Notes under the pieces: generated by a model
Told to the model about the DNA's origin: nothing
The model's input: the letters and a program-made list of their open reading frames with translations, nothing else
The model's database searches: none
Shown: positions 16,579 through 58,694 of the stretch, one piece after another
How positions within the stretch are numbered: the stretch's first letter is position 1
Layout of the letters: each line of letters starts with the position of its first letter
Origin: Haloarcula pelagica
Lineage (GTDB): Archaea > Halobacteriota > Halobacteria > Halobacteriales > Haloarculaceae
Length of the DNA: 64,000 nucleotides
Reading direction: 5' to 3'
Assembly: GCF_030127105.1 (NCBI RefSeq)
Contig: NZ_CP126162.1
Span: forward strand, 248,001 to 312,000
Made by a program: the position numbers and the translations under genes

Positions 16579-18060
16579 ATGAGCCAGCAAGCAGCGTCAC
16601 GCCTCGACAAGCAGATGCTCATCGGCGGCGAGTGGGTCGACGCCGACGAGCGGACAGACGTTATCCACCCCTACGATGGGGACCTCGTGGGGTCGATCCC
16701 GATGGCGACCGAACAGCAGGTCGTCGACGCGATCGACGCCGCCGAAGCCGCGTTCGAAGCGTCGGAGCTGTCGGCCTACCAGCGCTACGAGTACCTCCAC
16801 GAGACCGCCCGTCTGGTCGAAGAGCGGGCCGACGAGATCGCGACCATCCTCACCAGCGAACAGGGCAAGCCGATCTCGGAGGCCCGCGGCGAGGTCGACC
16901 GCGCCGTCCAGACGCTGGACCTCTCGTCCGAGCAGGCAAAGCGGATGTTCGGCGAGTACGTCCCGATGGACGCCCAGAAGGGTTTCGCCCGCGATCACTG
17001 TTTCACCCAGCGCGAGCCGCTGGGCGTCGTCGCGGCGATCACGCCGTTCAACTTCCCGCTGAACCTGATGGTCCACAAGGTCGGGCCAGCACTGGCGGCC
17101 GGTAACGCCGTCGTCGGCAAGCCCGCCTCGAACACCCCCCTGACCTCGATCGCGCTGTTCGAGTGTCTCGACGACGCCGCCGACGCGGTCGAGTTCGACG
17201 TACCGGATGGCCTGGTCAACATCGTCACCGGTTCGGGCTCCGCGACCGGCGACGTGATCCTAGAGCACGAGGCCGTCGAGGCCATCTCCTTCACCGGGTC
17301 GACGCCGGTCGGGAAGTACCTCGCCAACAACAGCGGGATGAAAGAGCTCACGCTCGAACTGGGCGGTAACGACCCGACGATCGTCTGGGACGACACCGAC
17401 CTCGAACAGGCGGCAGTCCAGGTCGTCGGCGGCGCCTGTTCGAACGCCGGCCAGGTGTGCAACAGCGTCGAGCGCGTGATCGTCCCCGAACGCATCGAAG
17501 ACGAGTTCGTGGAGCACCTCGTCGACGCCTGCGAGGATCTCGTCGTCGGCGACCCCTTCGAGGAGGGGACCAACATCGCCTCGATGGTCGACGACAGCCA
17601 GTTCGACGATGTCGTCGAACTCTTCGAAGCGACCGTCGACGCCGGCGCCACCGTCGAGTGTGGCGGTAACTACGGCGGCGACCTCGGCCCGCGGACGTTC
17701 GAGCCGACCGTCCTCTCGGGCGTGACCCCGGACATGCCCGCGGCCAAGGAGGAGACGTTCGGCCCGCTGGTCCCGGTCATCACCGTCGAGGACTTCGAGG
17801 AGGCACTTGCGGAGGCCAACAACACCAACTACGGCCTCGAAGCCGGCCTGTTCACCCAGGACATCGACCGCGCGAAACGCGCGGCCGACACCATCGACGC
17901 CGGCGGCGTCAACATCAACACGGTCAGTGGCTTCCGCGCCGATCACATGCCCTACGGCGGGTTCAAGGACTCGGGCGTCGGGAAGGAAGGTATCAAGTAC
18001 GCCGTCGAACACTTCTCCCGGGAGAAACTCGTCGGCTTCCACCAGGGCTTCAACGCGTAA
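16579..18060 (+). CDS. NAD(P)-dependent aldehyde dehydrogenase (semialdehyde/sulfolactaldehyde type)
   Basis: This 493-residue member of the aldehyde dehydrogenase superfamily shows the cofactor segment ITPFNFPLNLMVHK near residue 155, FTGSTPVGK near 235, the general-base Glu in LELGGNDP and the catalytic Cys in NAGQVCNSVE. The TTATAATTC box at 16550-16558 places a leaderless start at the ATG at 16579, not at 16561. Close relatives oxidise succinate, 2-oxoglutarate or lactaldehyde semialdehydes. In the sulfo-ED scheme it would oxidise sulfolactaldehyde to sulfolactate, the substrate made available to the SuyAB-type lyase. The fold and active site are certain, the substrate inferred. Confidence 0.88.
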   Translation: MSQQAASRLDKQMLIGGEWVDADERTDVIHPYDGDLVGSIPMATEQQVVDAIDAAEAAFEASELSAYQRYEYLHETARLVEERADEIATILTSEQGKPISEARGEVDRAVQTLDLSSEQAKRMFGEYVPMDAQKGFARDHCFTQREPLGVVAAITPFNFPLNLMVHKVGPALAAGNAVVGKPASNTPLTSIALFECLDDAADAVEFDVPDGLVNIVTGSGSATGDVILEHEAVEAISFTGSTPVGKYLANNSGMKELTLELGGNDPTIVWDDTDLEQAAVQVVGGACSNAGQVCNSVERVIVPERIEDEFVEHLVDACEDLVVGDPFEEGTNIASMVDDSQFDDVVELFEATVDAGATVECGGNYGGDLGPRTFEPTVLSGVTPDMPAAKEETFGPLVPVITVEDFEEALAEANNTNYGLEAGLFTQDIDRAKRAADTIDAGGVNINTVSGFRADHMPYGGFKDSGVGKEGIKYAVEHFSREKLVGFHQGFNA

Positions 18061-55646: not shown

Positions 55647-55687
55647 TTAACCAACAATCGTCGTAGGATAATAGATGTGTTGGTTAA
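55647..55687. repeat. Left 41-bp dyad: TTAACCAACA-21 bp-TGTTGGTTAA
   Basis: Arms of 10 bp are perfectly inverted and 21 bp apart, so their centres are 31 bp (about three helical turns) apart. The spacer contains the TATA box of the leftward gene at 55253-55642, so a dimer or tetramer bound here would cover the promoter. The same element recurs at 58654-58694. Confidence 0.85.
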
Positions 55688-55707: not shown

Positions 55708-55833
55708 CACACCTCTATCGATGTGTTCGGTTCGGCTCCGGATCGTCCGGTGATCCCAGACACACCTCTATCGAAGTGTTCCAGTCGATGACAGATGGGC
55801 GATCGGTCGGTCCGACACATCGATAGAGGTGTG
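55708..55833. repeat. Iterons 1-3 (two rightward, one leftward)
   Basis: Copies lie at 55708-55729 (+), 55761-55782 (+) and 55813-55833 (-). The shared core is CACACC, two variable bases, TATCGA, two bases, TGTTC. The third copy lacks one base at its end. Confidence 0.85.
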
Positions 55834-56034
55834 TGGCCGGCCGGTCGTGGTCGCGATCACGGAACTCCCGGAGACGGTGAGTCCCATGTGAGAACTGCCG
55901 ATACCGGAGGCCGGTATCGGTATCTGAACAGTCGTAACACTCAGATATGGAACGTAGAGGCCTTGAGACCGGGATCGTCGGTCGGTAACCGATACCCACT
56001 TTGGGATCGAGTCGGCCATCGGACGGGACAGACA

Positions 56035-56056
56035 CACCCCTCTATCGATGTGTTCG
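56035..56056 (+). repeat. Iteron 4 (rightward)
   Basis: CACCCC, TC, TATCGA, TG, TGTTCG: the same consensus with C for A in the left part. A G-run GTGGGGGGAGA follows about 20 bp downstream, as often seen near haloarchaeal origin repeats. Confidence 0.85.
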
Positions 56057-56253
56057 ACAGGTCGCTGTGTGGGGGGAGAACCGCCGACCGGAGACCGAGA
56101 GTACCGTGGAGACGGAGGACAAGAGTGGGAAACGGCGACTGAAGCGGACGAGACGGACTGAAACGGCCCGATGAGGTGTCTTCCAAGATAAGAGACAACC
56201 AGGAACGTACGAGTGATCCCTCCCCCTGACGAGGCAAGGTCGAGCGAACACAT

Positions 56254-56275
56254 CGAACACTTCGATAGAGGTGGG
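56254..56275 (-). repeat. Iteron 5 (leftward) with an overlapping half copy
   Basis: The inverse of the consensus is complete. Immediately left, CGAACACATCG (56245-56255) is an extra half copy overlapping it by two bases. Confidence 0.82.
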
Positions 56276-56460
56276 TGGGGGTGGTCTACTAGAACTAGCT
56301 TACTAGAACAGACTAGAAGAAGAAAGAACGGCCGAGAACCGTCCGGAGAGCGCTCTATACAGCCATATCGTCACAGTGCCACTCGCACTAAATGGACGAA
56401 AAATGCTGTCTTAGAGACTGAGAATGGTGAATATGATACTATCGTATTCACTGCCGGTAC
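56276..56460. other. AT-rich, CTAG-dense candidate unwinding element
   Basis: Four CTAG tetranucleotides fall within 28 bp (56289-56316), although CTAG is very rare elsewhere in this window. A stretch of clearly lower GC follows (about 56396-56452), including AATATGATACTATCGTATTC. It lies between two leftward iterons and upstream of orc1. Duplex unwinding is inferred from composition and position. Confidence 0.55.
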
Positions 56461-56501
56461 CACTCCGTCCGCGGCTCTCACCCCCTTCCCCTCCGCTCGC
56501 C

Positions 56502-56523
56502 CGAACACATCGATAGAGGGGTG
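56502..56523 (-). repeat. Iteron 6 (leftward)
   Basis: A complete inverse copy of the consensus with GGGGTG at its right end. A degenerate GGACACATCG follows at about 56542. Confidence 0.82.
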
Positions 56524-56632
56524 TCTGTGTCCCCAGGAGTCGGACACATCGTCAGACCGATCGCAGATTTCACACGGTCTCGTCCCCGGGAGTCGATTGA
56601 GCCGAATATCACCCACCTTAGAAGCCCGATCT

Positions 56633-56650
56633 CACATCGATAGGGGTGGG
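56633..56650 (-). repeat. Iteron 7 (leftward) abutting the orc1 promoter
   Basis: CACATCGATAGGGGTGGG matches the inverse consensus but lacks the outer CGAA. It ends five bases before the TTATTTA box of orc1, in the BRE position, so initiator binding here should affect transcription of its own gene. Confidence 0.78.
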
Positions 56651-56654
56651 GAAG

Positions 56655-56661
56655 TTATTTA
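56655..56661 (+). promoter_or_regulatory. TATA box of orc1/cdc6
   Basis: TTATTTA is centred about 28 bp before the ATG at 56686, fixing that start and a leaderless transcript. Confidence 0.7.
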
Positions 56662-56685
56662 TCCCCGGCGTTGTTGGTGACTGCC

Positions 56686-58185
56686 ATGGATACGGACGAC
56701 GCTCAGGACAACACCGGGGACCGAGCGGCGTCGGAGGACGGCAGTTCGGAACAGACGAGTCTTTCCGACCCGATCGGTGCCACGGACGAGTCGCCCGAGC
56801 CGCCACCGTCGGAACACCCCGACGCCGTCGAGCCGGCCGAATCGACCGCTGGCTCCCCGACCGAGGAGCCGGCCGACTCGGACAGCGAGGGATCACAGTC
56901 CATCGAGGAGATGCTGTTGGAGTTCGACGAACAGGAGGGACTGATCCGGGACCGCTCGCTCATCGATCCGAACCACGTCGTCGAGGAGGATCGGATCGTC
57001 GGCCGCGACAAACAGCTTCAGGAGGTCACGAAGATGCTCCGCGTCGCGCTGGGAGACAACCGGCCGCCGAATCTGTTCCTGTACGGGCCGTCTGGGACGG
57101 GCAAGTCACTCATCACGAAGGCGGTGTGTAAGAACATCAGCCGGATCTGCGAGTCGAGGGACATCCGCTTTGGAACGGTCGAGGTCAACTGCCAGGATAT
57201 CGACACCCTGGGTGTCGGCGTCTACGAACTCGCCTGCCGTGCAGCGGACGAAGCAAACGTCGAGGTCGAAGTCCCGAAACACGGCGTCGCGACCAAGGAG
57301 AAGTGGGACGAGCTGTTCCGGATCGTCAACGAGAACTTCGACTCGGTCGTCTTCGTCCTCGACGAACTCGACATGCTCGTCGGCCGGCGGGACAAGCAGG
57401 AACCGGCGTTCTCGCGGCTCCTGTACCAGCTGTCACGGGCGGGAGCAAACGACGAGCTGACGGCGTATCTCTCTGTCGTCGCGATCTCGAACGACACGAA
57501 GATGATGGAGTCGGTCGGCAGTCGCGCGCTGAGTTCCTTCACGCCGGAGGATGTCCACTTCGACGACTACGACGCCAACCAGCTCCAGGCGATCCTCCGT
57601 CGACGCCGCGACGCGTTTCACGAGGATGTCCTCGACGACGACGTGATCCCGCTGGCGGCAGCGTTCGCCGCACAGACCCACGGCGACGCCCGGAAAGCGA
57701 TCGATCTGATGCGTGTCGCGGGCGAACTCGCGGAACGCCAGGGCGACGAGCGCGTGCGCGAACGACACGTTAGGGCGGCCCAGGACAAAGTCGAGAAGAA
57801 CCGCGTTCTGGAGGTCGTCAGGGGGATCAGCCAACAGAAGAAGCTCTGTCTCTACGCGACGGCCGCCGTCGCCGACCAGACCGACGACGGCACGGCTCGC
57901 AGCACGACCGGCTACAAGGTGTATCAGTTCCTCACCGACTCGATCGACGCCGACCAGTACCACCAGGAGACGTACGTCAACAAGATGAAAGAGATGACGA
58001 CGTACTCGCTGGTCGACTTCGAGCGACGCAGCCACGGGCCGAGTTCGGGGATGTTTCTGGAGTTCCAGTTCGGCGAGCGGCCGGCGACGATCCTGGAGAC
58101 GCTGCGCGAGGACTCCCGGATCGAGGTCGCCGCGTCGGACGAAGTACAGAGCGTCGTCACCGCACAGCTCCGCAACGAGACCTGA
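56686..58185 (+). CDS. orc1: Orc1/Cdc6 replication initiator
   Basis: The 499-residue protein has an acidic, disordered N-terminal extension of about 75 residues, then the AAA+ core. Walker A GPSGTGKS is near residues 134-141 and Walker B VVFVLDELDML near 221-231, followed by sensor-1 (SVVAISNDTKMM), the arginine-finger/sensor-2 region (THGDARKAIDLMRVAGELAE) and a C-terminal winged-helix domain. It binds the origin repeats and loads MCM helicase. It is flanked on both sides by iterons, and one abuts its promoter. ATG 56686 is chosen over 56671 from the TATA spacing. Confidence 0.93.
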   Translation: MDTDDAQDNTGDRAASEDGSSEQTSLSDPIGATDESPEPPPSEHPDAVEPAESTAGSPTEEPADSDSEGSQSIEEMLLEFDEQEGLIRDRSLIDPNHVVEEDRIVGRDKQLQEVTKMLRVALGDNRPPNLFLYGPSGTGKSLITKAVCKNISRICESRDIRFGTVEVNCQDIDTLGVGVYELACRAADEANVEVEVPKHGVATKEKWDELFRIVNENFDSVVFVLDELDMLVGRRDKQEPAFSRLLYQLSRAGANDELTAYLSVVAISNDTKMMESVGSRALSSFTPEDVHFDDYDANQLQAILRRRRDAFHEDVLDDDVIPLAAAFAAQTHGDARKAIDLMRVAGELAERQGDERVRERHVRAAQDKVEKNRVLEVVRGISQQKKLCLYATAAVADQTDDGTARSTTGYKVYQFLTDSIDADQYHQETYVNKMKEMTTYSLVDFERRSHGPSSGMFLEFQFGERPATILETLREDSRIEVAASDEVQSVVTAQLRNET

Positions 58186-58231
58186 CCTCGCCCGCTGCGG
58201 TCGACCAGAACGCCACAGCACTGGTCCGTGA

Positions 58232-58349
58232 CATGCCGGTATCGAACTGTCCTTGCCCTGCCACACACCGGTATCGACCTGTCTGTCCCGAGCCACACAC
58301 CGTTATCGAAGTGTTCATTCCCCGCCACACACCGGTATCGAACTGTTTT
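58232..58349 (+). repeat. Iterons 8-11, exact 32-bp period
   Basis: Four rightward copies begin at 58232, 58264, 58296 and 58328, each 32 bp after the last (about three helical turns), so all present the same DNA face. The core is CACACC, G and one variable base, TATCGA, two bases, TGT. The first has CATGCC instead of CACACC. Confidence 0.87.
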
Positions 58350-58397
58350 CTCTGCCGGCGGTGTTCACCACGACTGAATAGGTTCTCGCCTGGAGGA

Positions 58398-58471
58398 CAC
58401 CCCTCTATCGATGTGTTCGTGTGGCTGCTGGACAATCTCGGTGTGTTCACACACCGCTATCGATGTGTTCG
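58398..58471 (+). repeat. Iterons 12-13 (rightward)
   Basis: Copies at 58398-58419 and 58450-58471, 52 bp apart, both with TATCGATGTGTTCG. Confidence 0.86.
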
Positions 58472-58554
58472 AAACGGACGCCTGTGGGTGAATATCGGTG
58501 TCTGACAGCGACGAGACGGCATACGCCTGGCTGACAAGTGTCTTACAAGCGTCC

Positions 58555-58576
58555 CGTCCCTGTATCGATGTGTTCG
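58555..58576 (+). repeat. Iteron 14 (rightward)
   Basis: The right half TATCGATGTGTTCG is perfect; the left half is diverged (CGTCCCTG). An AT-rich stretch with CTAG at 58581, 58602 and 58623 follows. Confidence 0.78.
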
Positions 58577-58653
58577 ATAGCTAGGCGTCTGATTACTATC
58601 TCTAGATTTGGCCGGGATAGTACTAGAATCGAACTGACGGAGCACTCCCGGTC

Positions 58654-58694
58654 TTAACCAACAATGGGTCGAACACGCGCGAGCTGTTGGTTAA
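58654..58694. repeat. Right 41-bp dyad: TTAACCAACA-21 bp-TGTTGGTTAA
   Basis: Identical arms and identical 21-bp spacing as the element at 55647-55687, but a different spacer with no TATA box. It therefore cannot be just a promoter operator. No gene starts within about 150 bp in either direction. It closes the origin module on the right. Confidence 0.85.

Follow-up and report, generated by a model that had tools for sequence, protein, structure and literature searches.

Oriented G-string boxes around orc1 mark a probable, well-conserved haloarchaeal megaplasmid origin

The module at 55.65-58.7 kb of the window (the whole 64-kb stretch analysed here, contig C2 positions 248001-312000) is probably the working replication origin of a ~434-kb circular megaplasmid, served by its own Orc1 initiator in the manner set out below; this reading is drawn from sequence comparison. 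It represents a well-conserved family of megaplasmid origins, not a lone exotic case. The origin is of a known kind, set apart by a family-specific core in its origin recognition box (ORB) and by a polar cassette for which we found no description in the literature searched. In the proposed working, the iterons would serve as ORBs, each with a GAACACATCGATA core and the G-string AGAGGGGTGTG, bound by Orc1 with fixed polarity, and the origin proper would lie upstream of orc1. There, a tandem half-site and iteron (56246-56275) would put the initiator beside a weak CTAG/purine element (56283-56328).

The haloarchaeal genome consists of four contigs, C1 (3.53 Mb), C2 (479 kb), C3 (258 kb) and C4 (191 kb). 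The ends of C2 (1-44854 and 433918-478761) overlap over 44.8 kb at 99.87% identity, so the contig is an untrimmed circle and the real replicon is a megaplasmid of ~433.9 kb. The initiator gene, orc1/cdc6, occupies 56686-58185 on the forward strand, with its ATG at 56686 and an in-frame TTG at 56671. Its product scores 420 bits against TIGR02928 (cut-off 181) and matches Pfam Cdc6_lid and Cdc6_C. Solved Orc1 structures, matched by sequence, supply its domain layout, which is the ordinary AAA+, lid and winged-helix one, and the protein aligns to Orc1 of Aeropyrum and Sulfolobus. The closest Orc relatives by sequence are encoded on Haloarcula megaplasmids (92%), where the left-side neighbours, an NAD(P)H-binding protein and a universal stress protein, are the same.

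An inverted repeat, TTAACCAACA-n21-TGTTGGTTAA, stands at the left (55647-55687) and right (58654-58694) borders of the module and was not found in the literature searched. This 41-bp repeat also occurs at C1:2622053, C3:110033 and C4:85527, 93434, 112143, 129170 and 138017. It is present in 36 of 81 related origin loci, with a spacer that varies from n20 to n23, and is found chiefly on plasmids and next to orc-like genes.

Scanning with the pattern CACMCC-NN-TATCGA-NN-TGTTC returned 13 iterons at ≤3 mismatches in the window, every one within 55708-58575, where shuffles expect 0.02. A degenerate 14th copy, with four mismatches to the pattern and a conserved position, was identified by eye at 56630-56650. 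The original prediction of 14 iterons around orc1 thus holds, as do the orientations it gave. Upstream of the gene, iterons 1 (55708-55728), 2 (55761-55781), both without mismatches, and 4 (56035-56055) point rightward, and iterons 3 (55813-55833, two mismatches), 5 (56255-56275), 6 (56503-56523) and 7 (the degenerate copy) point leftward. All seven downstream copies point rightward: iterons 8 (58232-58252, three mismatches), 9 (58264-58284), 10 (58296-58316), 11 (58328-58348), 12 (58398-58418), 13 (58450-58470) and 14 (58555-58575). A leftward half-site, consensus ACACATCGTC, lies at 56544-56553 and is conserved in 43 of 56 main-family loci.

The prediction had also proposed a search for the consensus beside close orc homologues. 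A scan of 84,980 genomes gave 78 loci encoding relatives of this Orc, and at nearly all of the ~80 relatives, spread over many genera, the same repeat surrounds the gene in several copies and in the same layout; the few exceptions are mostly truncated contigs or divergent loci. The relatives form two families, each a starred clade on the Orc tree, at about 74-92% (main family) and 65-68% (sister family) Orc identity. Main-family loci commonly carry ++--- or ++-- upstream and then a run of mostly 2-7 plus copies downstream, typically ++++. Sister-family loci carry +++--- upstream and minus copies downstream, --(-), so the direction of the downstream array is opposite between the families, with one change on the Orc tree. 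Because the layout is conserved across relatives, the switch in orientation is real and is a trait of the family, not a peculiarity of this locus. The family includes the orc genes of Natronomonas pharaonis PL131 and Halorubrum lacusprofundi pHLAC01, both accompanied by these iterons. These replicons already figure in a 2012 survey of haloarchaeal origins (Wu 2012, PMC3528665), and the kind of origin was therefore already known. Plasmid records that match either Orc family at ≥60% identity include no Haloarcula hispanica replicon, and virus records gave two matches only, at 26%.

That the locus is an origin at all follows by inference from three observations: its orc1 is the only orc gene on C2 above the TIGR02928 cut-off, it sits on a GC-skew plateau, and the module is kept at nearly all relatives. 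On the trimmed circle the locus, at 304 kb of C2, falls in the top 4.3% of detrended cumulative GC skew (block-shuffle p 0.001), and origins lie near skew maxima in another haloarchaeal study (PMC3119063). The cumulative skew has its maximum at 339.6 kb and its minimum at 43.2 kb; the symmetric optimum, at 281-286 kb, is about 20 kb off the locus. The position of the maximum itself lends something to the view that this is a dormant or accessory origin, with iterons and Orc1 intact, and that C2 starts replication at an orc-independent or unrecognised origin. So do a second, distant orc-like gene on C2 (window 19.8-20.6 kb) and the precedent of H. hispanica oriC4 and oriC5, orc-adjacent origins without ARS activity. 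We consider dormancy unlikely because this is the only orc of C2 above the TIGR02928 cut-off, because the locus is on the skew plateau, and because the Orc family is maintained mostly on large plasmids, often as the only close match of the record.

What kind of box is it? Read on the other strand, the iteron is GAACACATCGATAGAGGGGTGTG, an ORB that combines the haloarchaeal G-string with a family-specific core. The main-family consensus is ACACCCCTCTATCGATGTGTTC (n=375 copies) and that of the sister family is CACC(C/T)CTATCGATTTGTTC (n=169 copies), so one box is common to both. On the reverse strand the consensus, GAACA-CATCGATAG-AGGGGTGTG, places the core first and the G-string after it, ending in AGAGGGGTGTG. 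The G-string is named as a hallmark of haloarchaeal ORBs in Wu 2012 (PMC3528665), and the core-then-G-string layout appears there and in PMC3936714. Aligned over its whole length to the oriC1 box of the same genome, CACCCCTTCGTTTCGAGTGGAAC, the iteron does better than 99.3% of shuffles (145 of 20,000 reach the same score). Kinship of the cores was rejected: core-only shuffles match in 8592 of 20,000 cases, which is not significant. With the G-string layout, the overall alignment and a core that is not significantly alike, the box is best described as an ORB of the G-string type whose core is its own. The consensus was first taken to be unlike the canonical haloarchaeal box; this stands for the TATCGA core and not for the other strand, which ends in the usual G-string layout. 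Likewise, a match to a known ORB does emerge after alignment for the whole box, but not for the core alone. In the paper texts searched, neither TATCGA nor TTAACCAAC is printed in connection with haloarchaea.

Alignment of the upstream regions brought out a conserved non-iteron element beside one upstream box in nearly every locus. The resulting cassette has five parts: a half-site and the iteron it abuts, an extension rich in GT, CTAG copies (as a rule two to five), and a tract of purines along the G-string strand. In the window it spans 56246-56328. The leftward half-site GAACACATC (56246-56254) abuts iteron 5 in tandem with a 9-bp period, and the G-string side of this iteron faces the element at 56283-56328, where CTAG at 56289, 56295, 56303 and 56313 is followed by AGAAGAAGAAAGAA. 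The TCGAAC junction of the half-site is found at 46 of 51 cassette iterons versus 28 of 174 other upstream iterons and 6 of 163 downstream ones. On the G-string strand the longest purine run reaches at least 10 in 86%, and a pyrimidine run does so in 7%. Of the 212 CTAG near the cassette, 191 are no more than 30 nt away from the end of the iteron.

The same side is where the duplex is weak. Mean duplex stability reaches its minimum 38-40 bp from the cassette iteron on the G-string side in both families, and the cassette flank is weaker than the flanks of other iterons (p 3e-25), a signal for which the choice of cassette, made partly by CTAG count or purine tract, could account in part. The single weakest window lies elsewhere in 47% of main-family and 68% of sister-family loci. 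AT content alone was tried as a marker of unwinding and set aside as ambiguous; stacking energy aligned on the cassette was used instead. In seven main-family loci the cassette iteron is reversed; the element is then found on the opposite side and remains next to the G-string. On the Orc tree the cassette has flipped no fewer than six times, with its internal polarity kept. On the strength of these comparisons, the CTAG/purine element at 56283-56328 is a candidate DNA unwinding element.

The alternative that the downstream rightward array is the initiation site, with the upstream boxes left to regulation, has in its favour that the seven copies there are closely spaced and that CTAG clusters a second time at 58581-58626. 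It is quite improbable, since the cassette with its half-site, CTAG and lowest stability is upstream in both families, only 6 of 163 downstream iterons having the tandem half-site, and since the downstream copies are more degenerate and differ in direction between families. In H. hispanica, moreover, oriC2D has no origin activity; the ORB-rich region downstream of cdc6E there is an essential negative control element that probably titrates the initiator (PMC3936714). By analogy, the downstream array on C2 most likely titrates Orc1, a role that it fits because it lacks the cassette features and its direction is not conserved between families. Its seven iterons would probably soak up initiator and so restrain re-initiation.

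Iteron 7 abuts the orc1 promoter, whose TATA-like TTATTTAT is at 56655-56662. A degenerate iteron at a promoter suggests autoregulation, and orc1 is probably regulated in this way by its own product. Solitary iterons, exact or with 1-2 mismatches, occur on C2 outside the window at 16996, 197278, 336751 and 430855; a copy at 450913 is the same site as 16996, present twice owing to the 44.8-kb overlap of the contig ends. Others are found on related plasmids (PL131:33516, pHLAC01:94865 and NZ_CP142028:132048). They are intergenic wherever checked, and exact solitary iterons are absent from the 3.5-Mb chromosome. The plasmid Orc1 may use them for titration, regulation or segregation. On C3, a different orc (37% identity) is followed, some 2.2 kb downstream, by two family iterons (122407-122427 and 122842-122862), so initiators may cross-talk between replicons. 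The promoter-abutting copy and the solitary intergenic sites on C2 and three related plasmids could be taken to mean that the iterons serve mainly as operators or for partition, with Orc1 acting here as a regulator. We regard this as very improbable, because haloarchaeal origins are normally built in just this way, with boxes closely packed on both sides of an Orc1 gene and a weak stretch of DNA next to it (PMC3528665).

The partly palindromic core had been taken to suggest that the initiator binds as a differently arranged complex, and about 82% of main-family copies do have the palindrome ATCGAT. That Orc1 forms a symmetrical or differently arranged complex there is nevertheless hardly credible, because outside the core the box is strictly asymmetric in both families (CACCCC versus TGTTC), its direction relative to the CTAG element is invariant even in inverted cassettes, and the protein has the ordinary Orc1 layout. 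An asymmetric box of fixed polarity points instead to an initiator bound in one orientation, as at ordinary ORBs.

C2 carries 174 CTAG where 1537 are expected, a depletion of about 9-fold, and two of the three C2 clusters of at least three CTAG in 80 bp fall in the origin module. Clusters of CTAG upstream of haloarchaeal orc1/cdc6, correlated with an orphan m4C methylase, were described by Blow 2016 (PMC4752239), and here too a cluster lies beside orc1/cdc6 against a depleted genome. The link between methylase and CTAG has been doubted for Haloferax (Ouellette 2018, PMC5867850). Within the genus, such clusters are general at orc flanks, with 12 of 42 loci (a few of which overlap) versus a background of 2.4%, oriC1 included. 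The second cluster of the module (three copies) sits just past iteron 14, on the side of its TGTTC, a polarity opposite to that of the upstream cassette. The genome encodes an orphan CTAG methylase of its own (C1:919786, 49% to M.MthZI).

Two or more CTAG lie beside an upstream iteron, on its G-string side, in 30 of the 32 main-family loci that have the methylase and in 1 of the 18 that lack it (Fisher p 3e-10). The absences are nested in a few clades (Halorubrum with Haloquadratum, Halobellus and Halopenitus), and independent pairs on the tree give 1-2 for an association between methylase and CTAG, 0 against and 3-4 with no difference. Halobellus rarus has the methylase and lacks the CTAG. 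In the sister family there is no such correlation, and origins in methylase-lacking hosts keep 4-5 CTAG. We rejected the co-evolution of methylase and CTAG as proof of methylation control, given the few tree events and the uncorrelated sister family, and for the same reasons treat the methylation link as a lead only. Through methylation of CTAG, the orphan enzyme encoded on the chromosome might also play a part in timing. With the CTAGs earlier tied to this enzyme now placed at the presumed melting edge, the methylation question becomes testable by a few plasmid point mutations.

Where and in which direction archaeal Orc1 opens DNA is poorly known. This Orc family offers a small, conserved and base-resolved candidate, with one box, one side and one weak element, found in dozens of genera and including natural inversions. 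A tentative proposal, doubtful as it stands, is that the cassette is a directional melting module of the form tandem half-site - ORB - G-string - (GT)n - CTAG doublet - single-stranded-biased purine tract. Orc1 would nucleate on the 1.5 box, take its direction from the G-string, and then open the purine tract and engage one of its strands, much as DnaA engages DnaA-trios in bacteria; CTAG methylation at the melting edge would gate re-initiation. If this were true, the inversion of whole cassettes in evolution with their polarity kept would be natural evidence for the direction of melting.

The C2 origin is closest in kind to those of Wu 2012 (PMC3528665), in which orc1/cdc6 genes, mostly extrachromosomal, are flanked by G-string repeats specific to the initiator family. 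As there, the C2 repeats occupy the intergenic regions directly beside orc1, carry the G-string, and are alike within one Orc family, which that study reports at ≥80% identity. It also describes at least two ORBs in inverted orientation flanking an AT-rich unwinding element. Inverted boxes are present on C2, but the boxes to either side of its weakest conserved element share one direction. The C2 box itself may already be printed among the logos of that study. With H. hispanica oriC2-cdc6E and oriC2D (PMC3936714) the C2 origin shares an initiator gene flanked by boxes left and right and an ORB-rich region, here of seven copies, directly downstream. The oriC1 of the same genome (locus L013, 3298-3620) also has G-string boxes and a CTAG-rich stretch, with eight CTAG in about 120 bp (L013 3374-3499) between two ORBs. 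However, its core is TTTCGAGTGGAA versus TATCGATGTG here, and its CTAG stretch, unlike the C2 cassette, is flanked by inverted boxes with G-strings outward. CTAG enrichment beside orc1/cdc6 in a genome with an orphan CTAG methylase is also common to the cases of Blow 2016 (PMC4752239) and Ouellette 2018 (PMC5867850); those studies deal with regional density, whereas here the CTAGs keep to one side of a single iteron, at a distance of no more than 30 nt.
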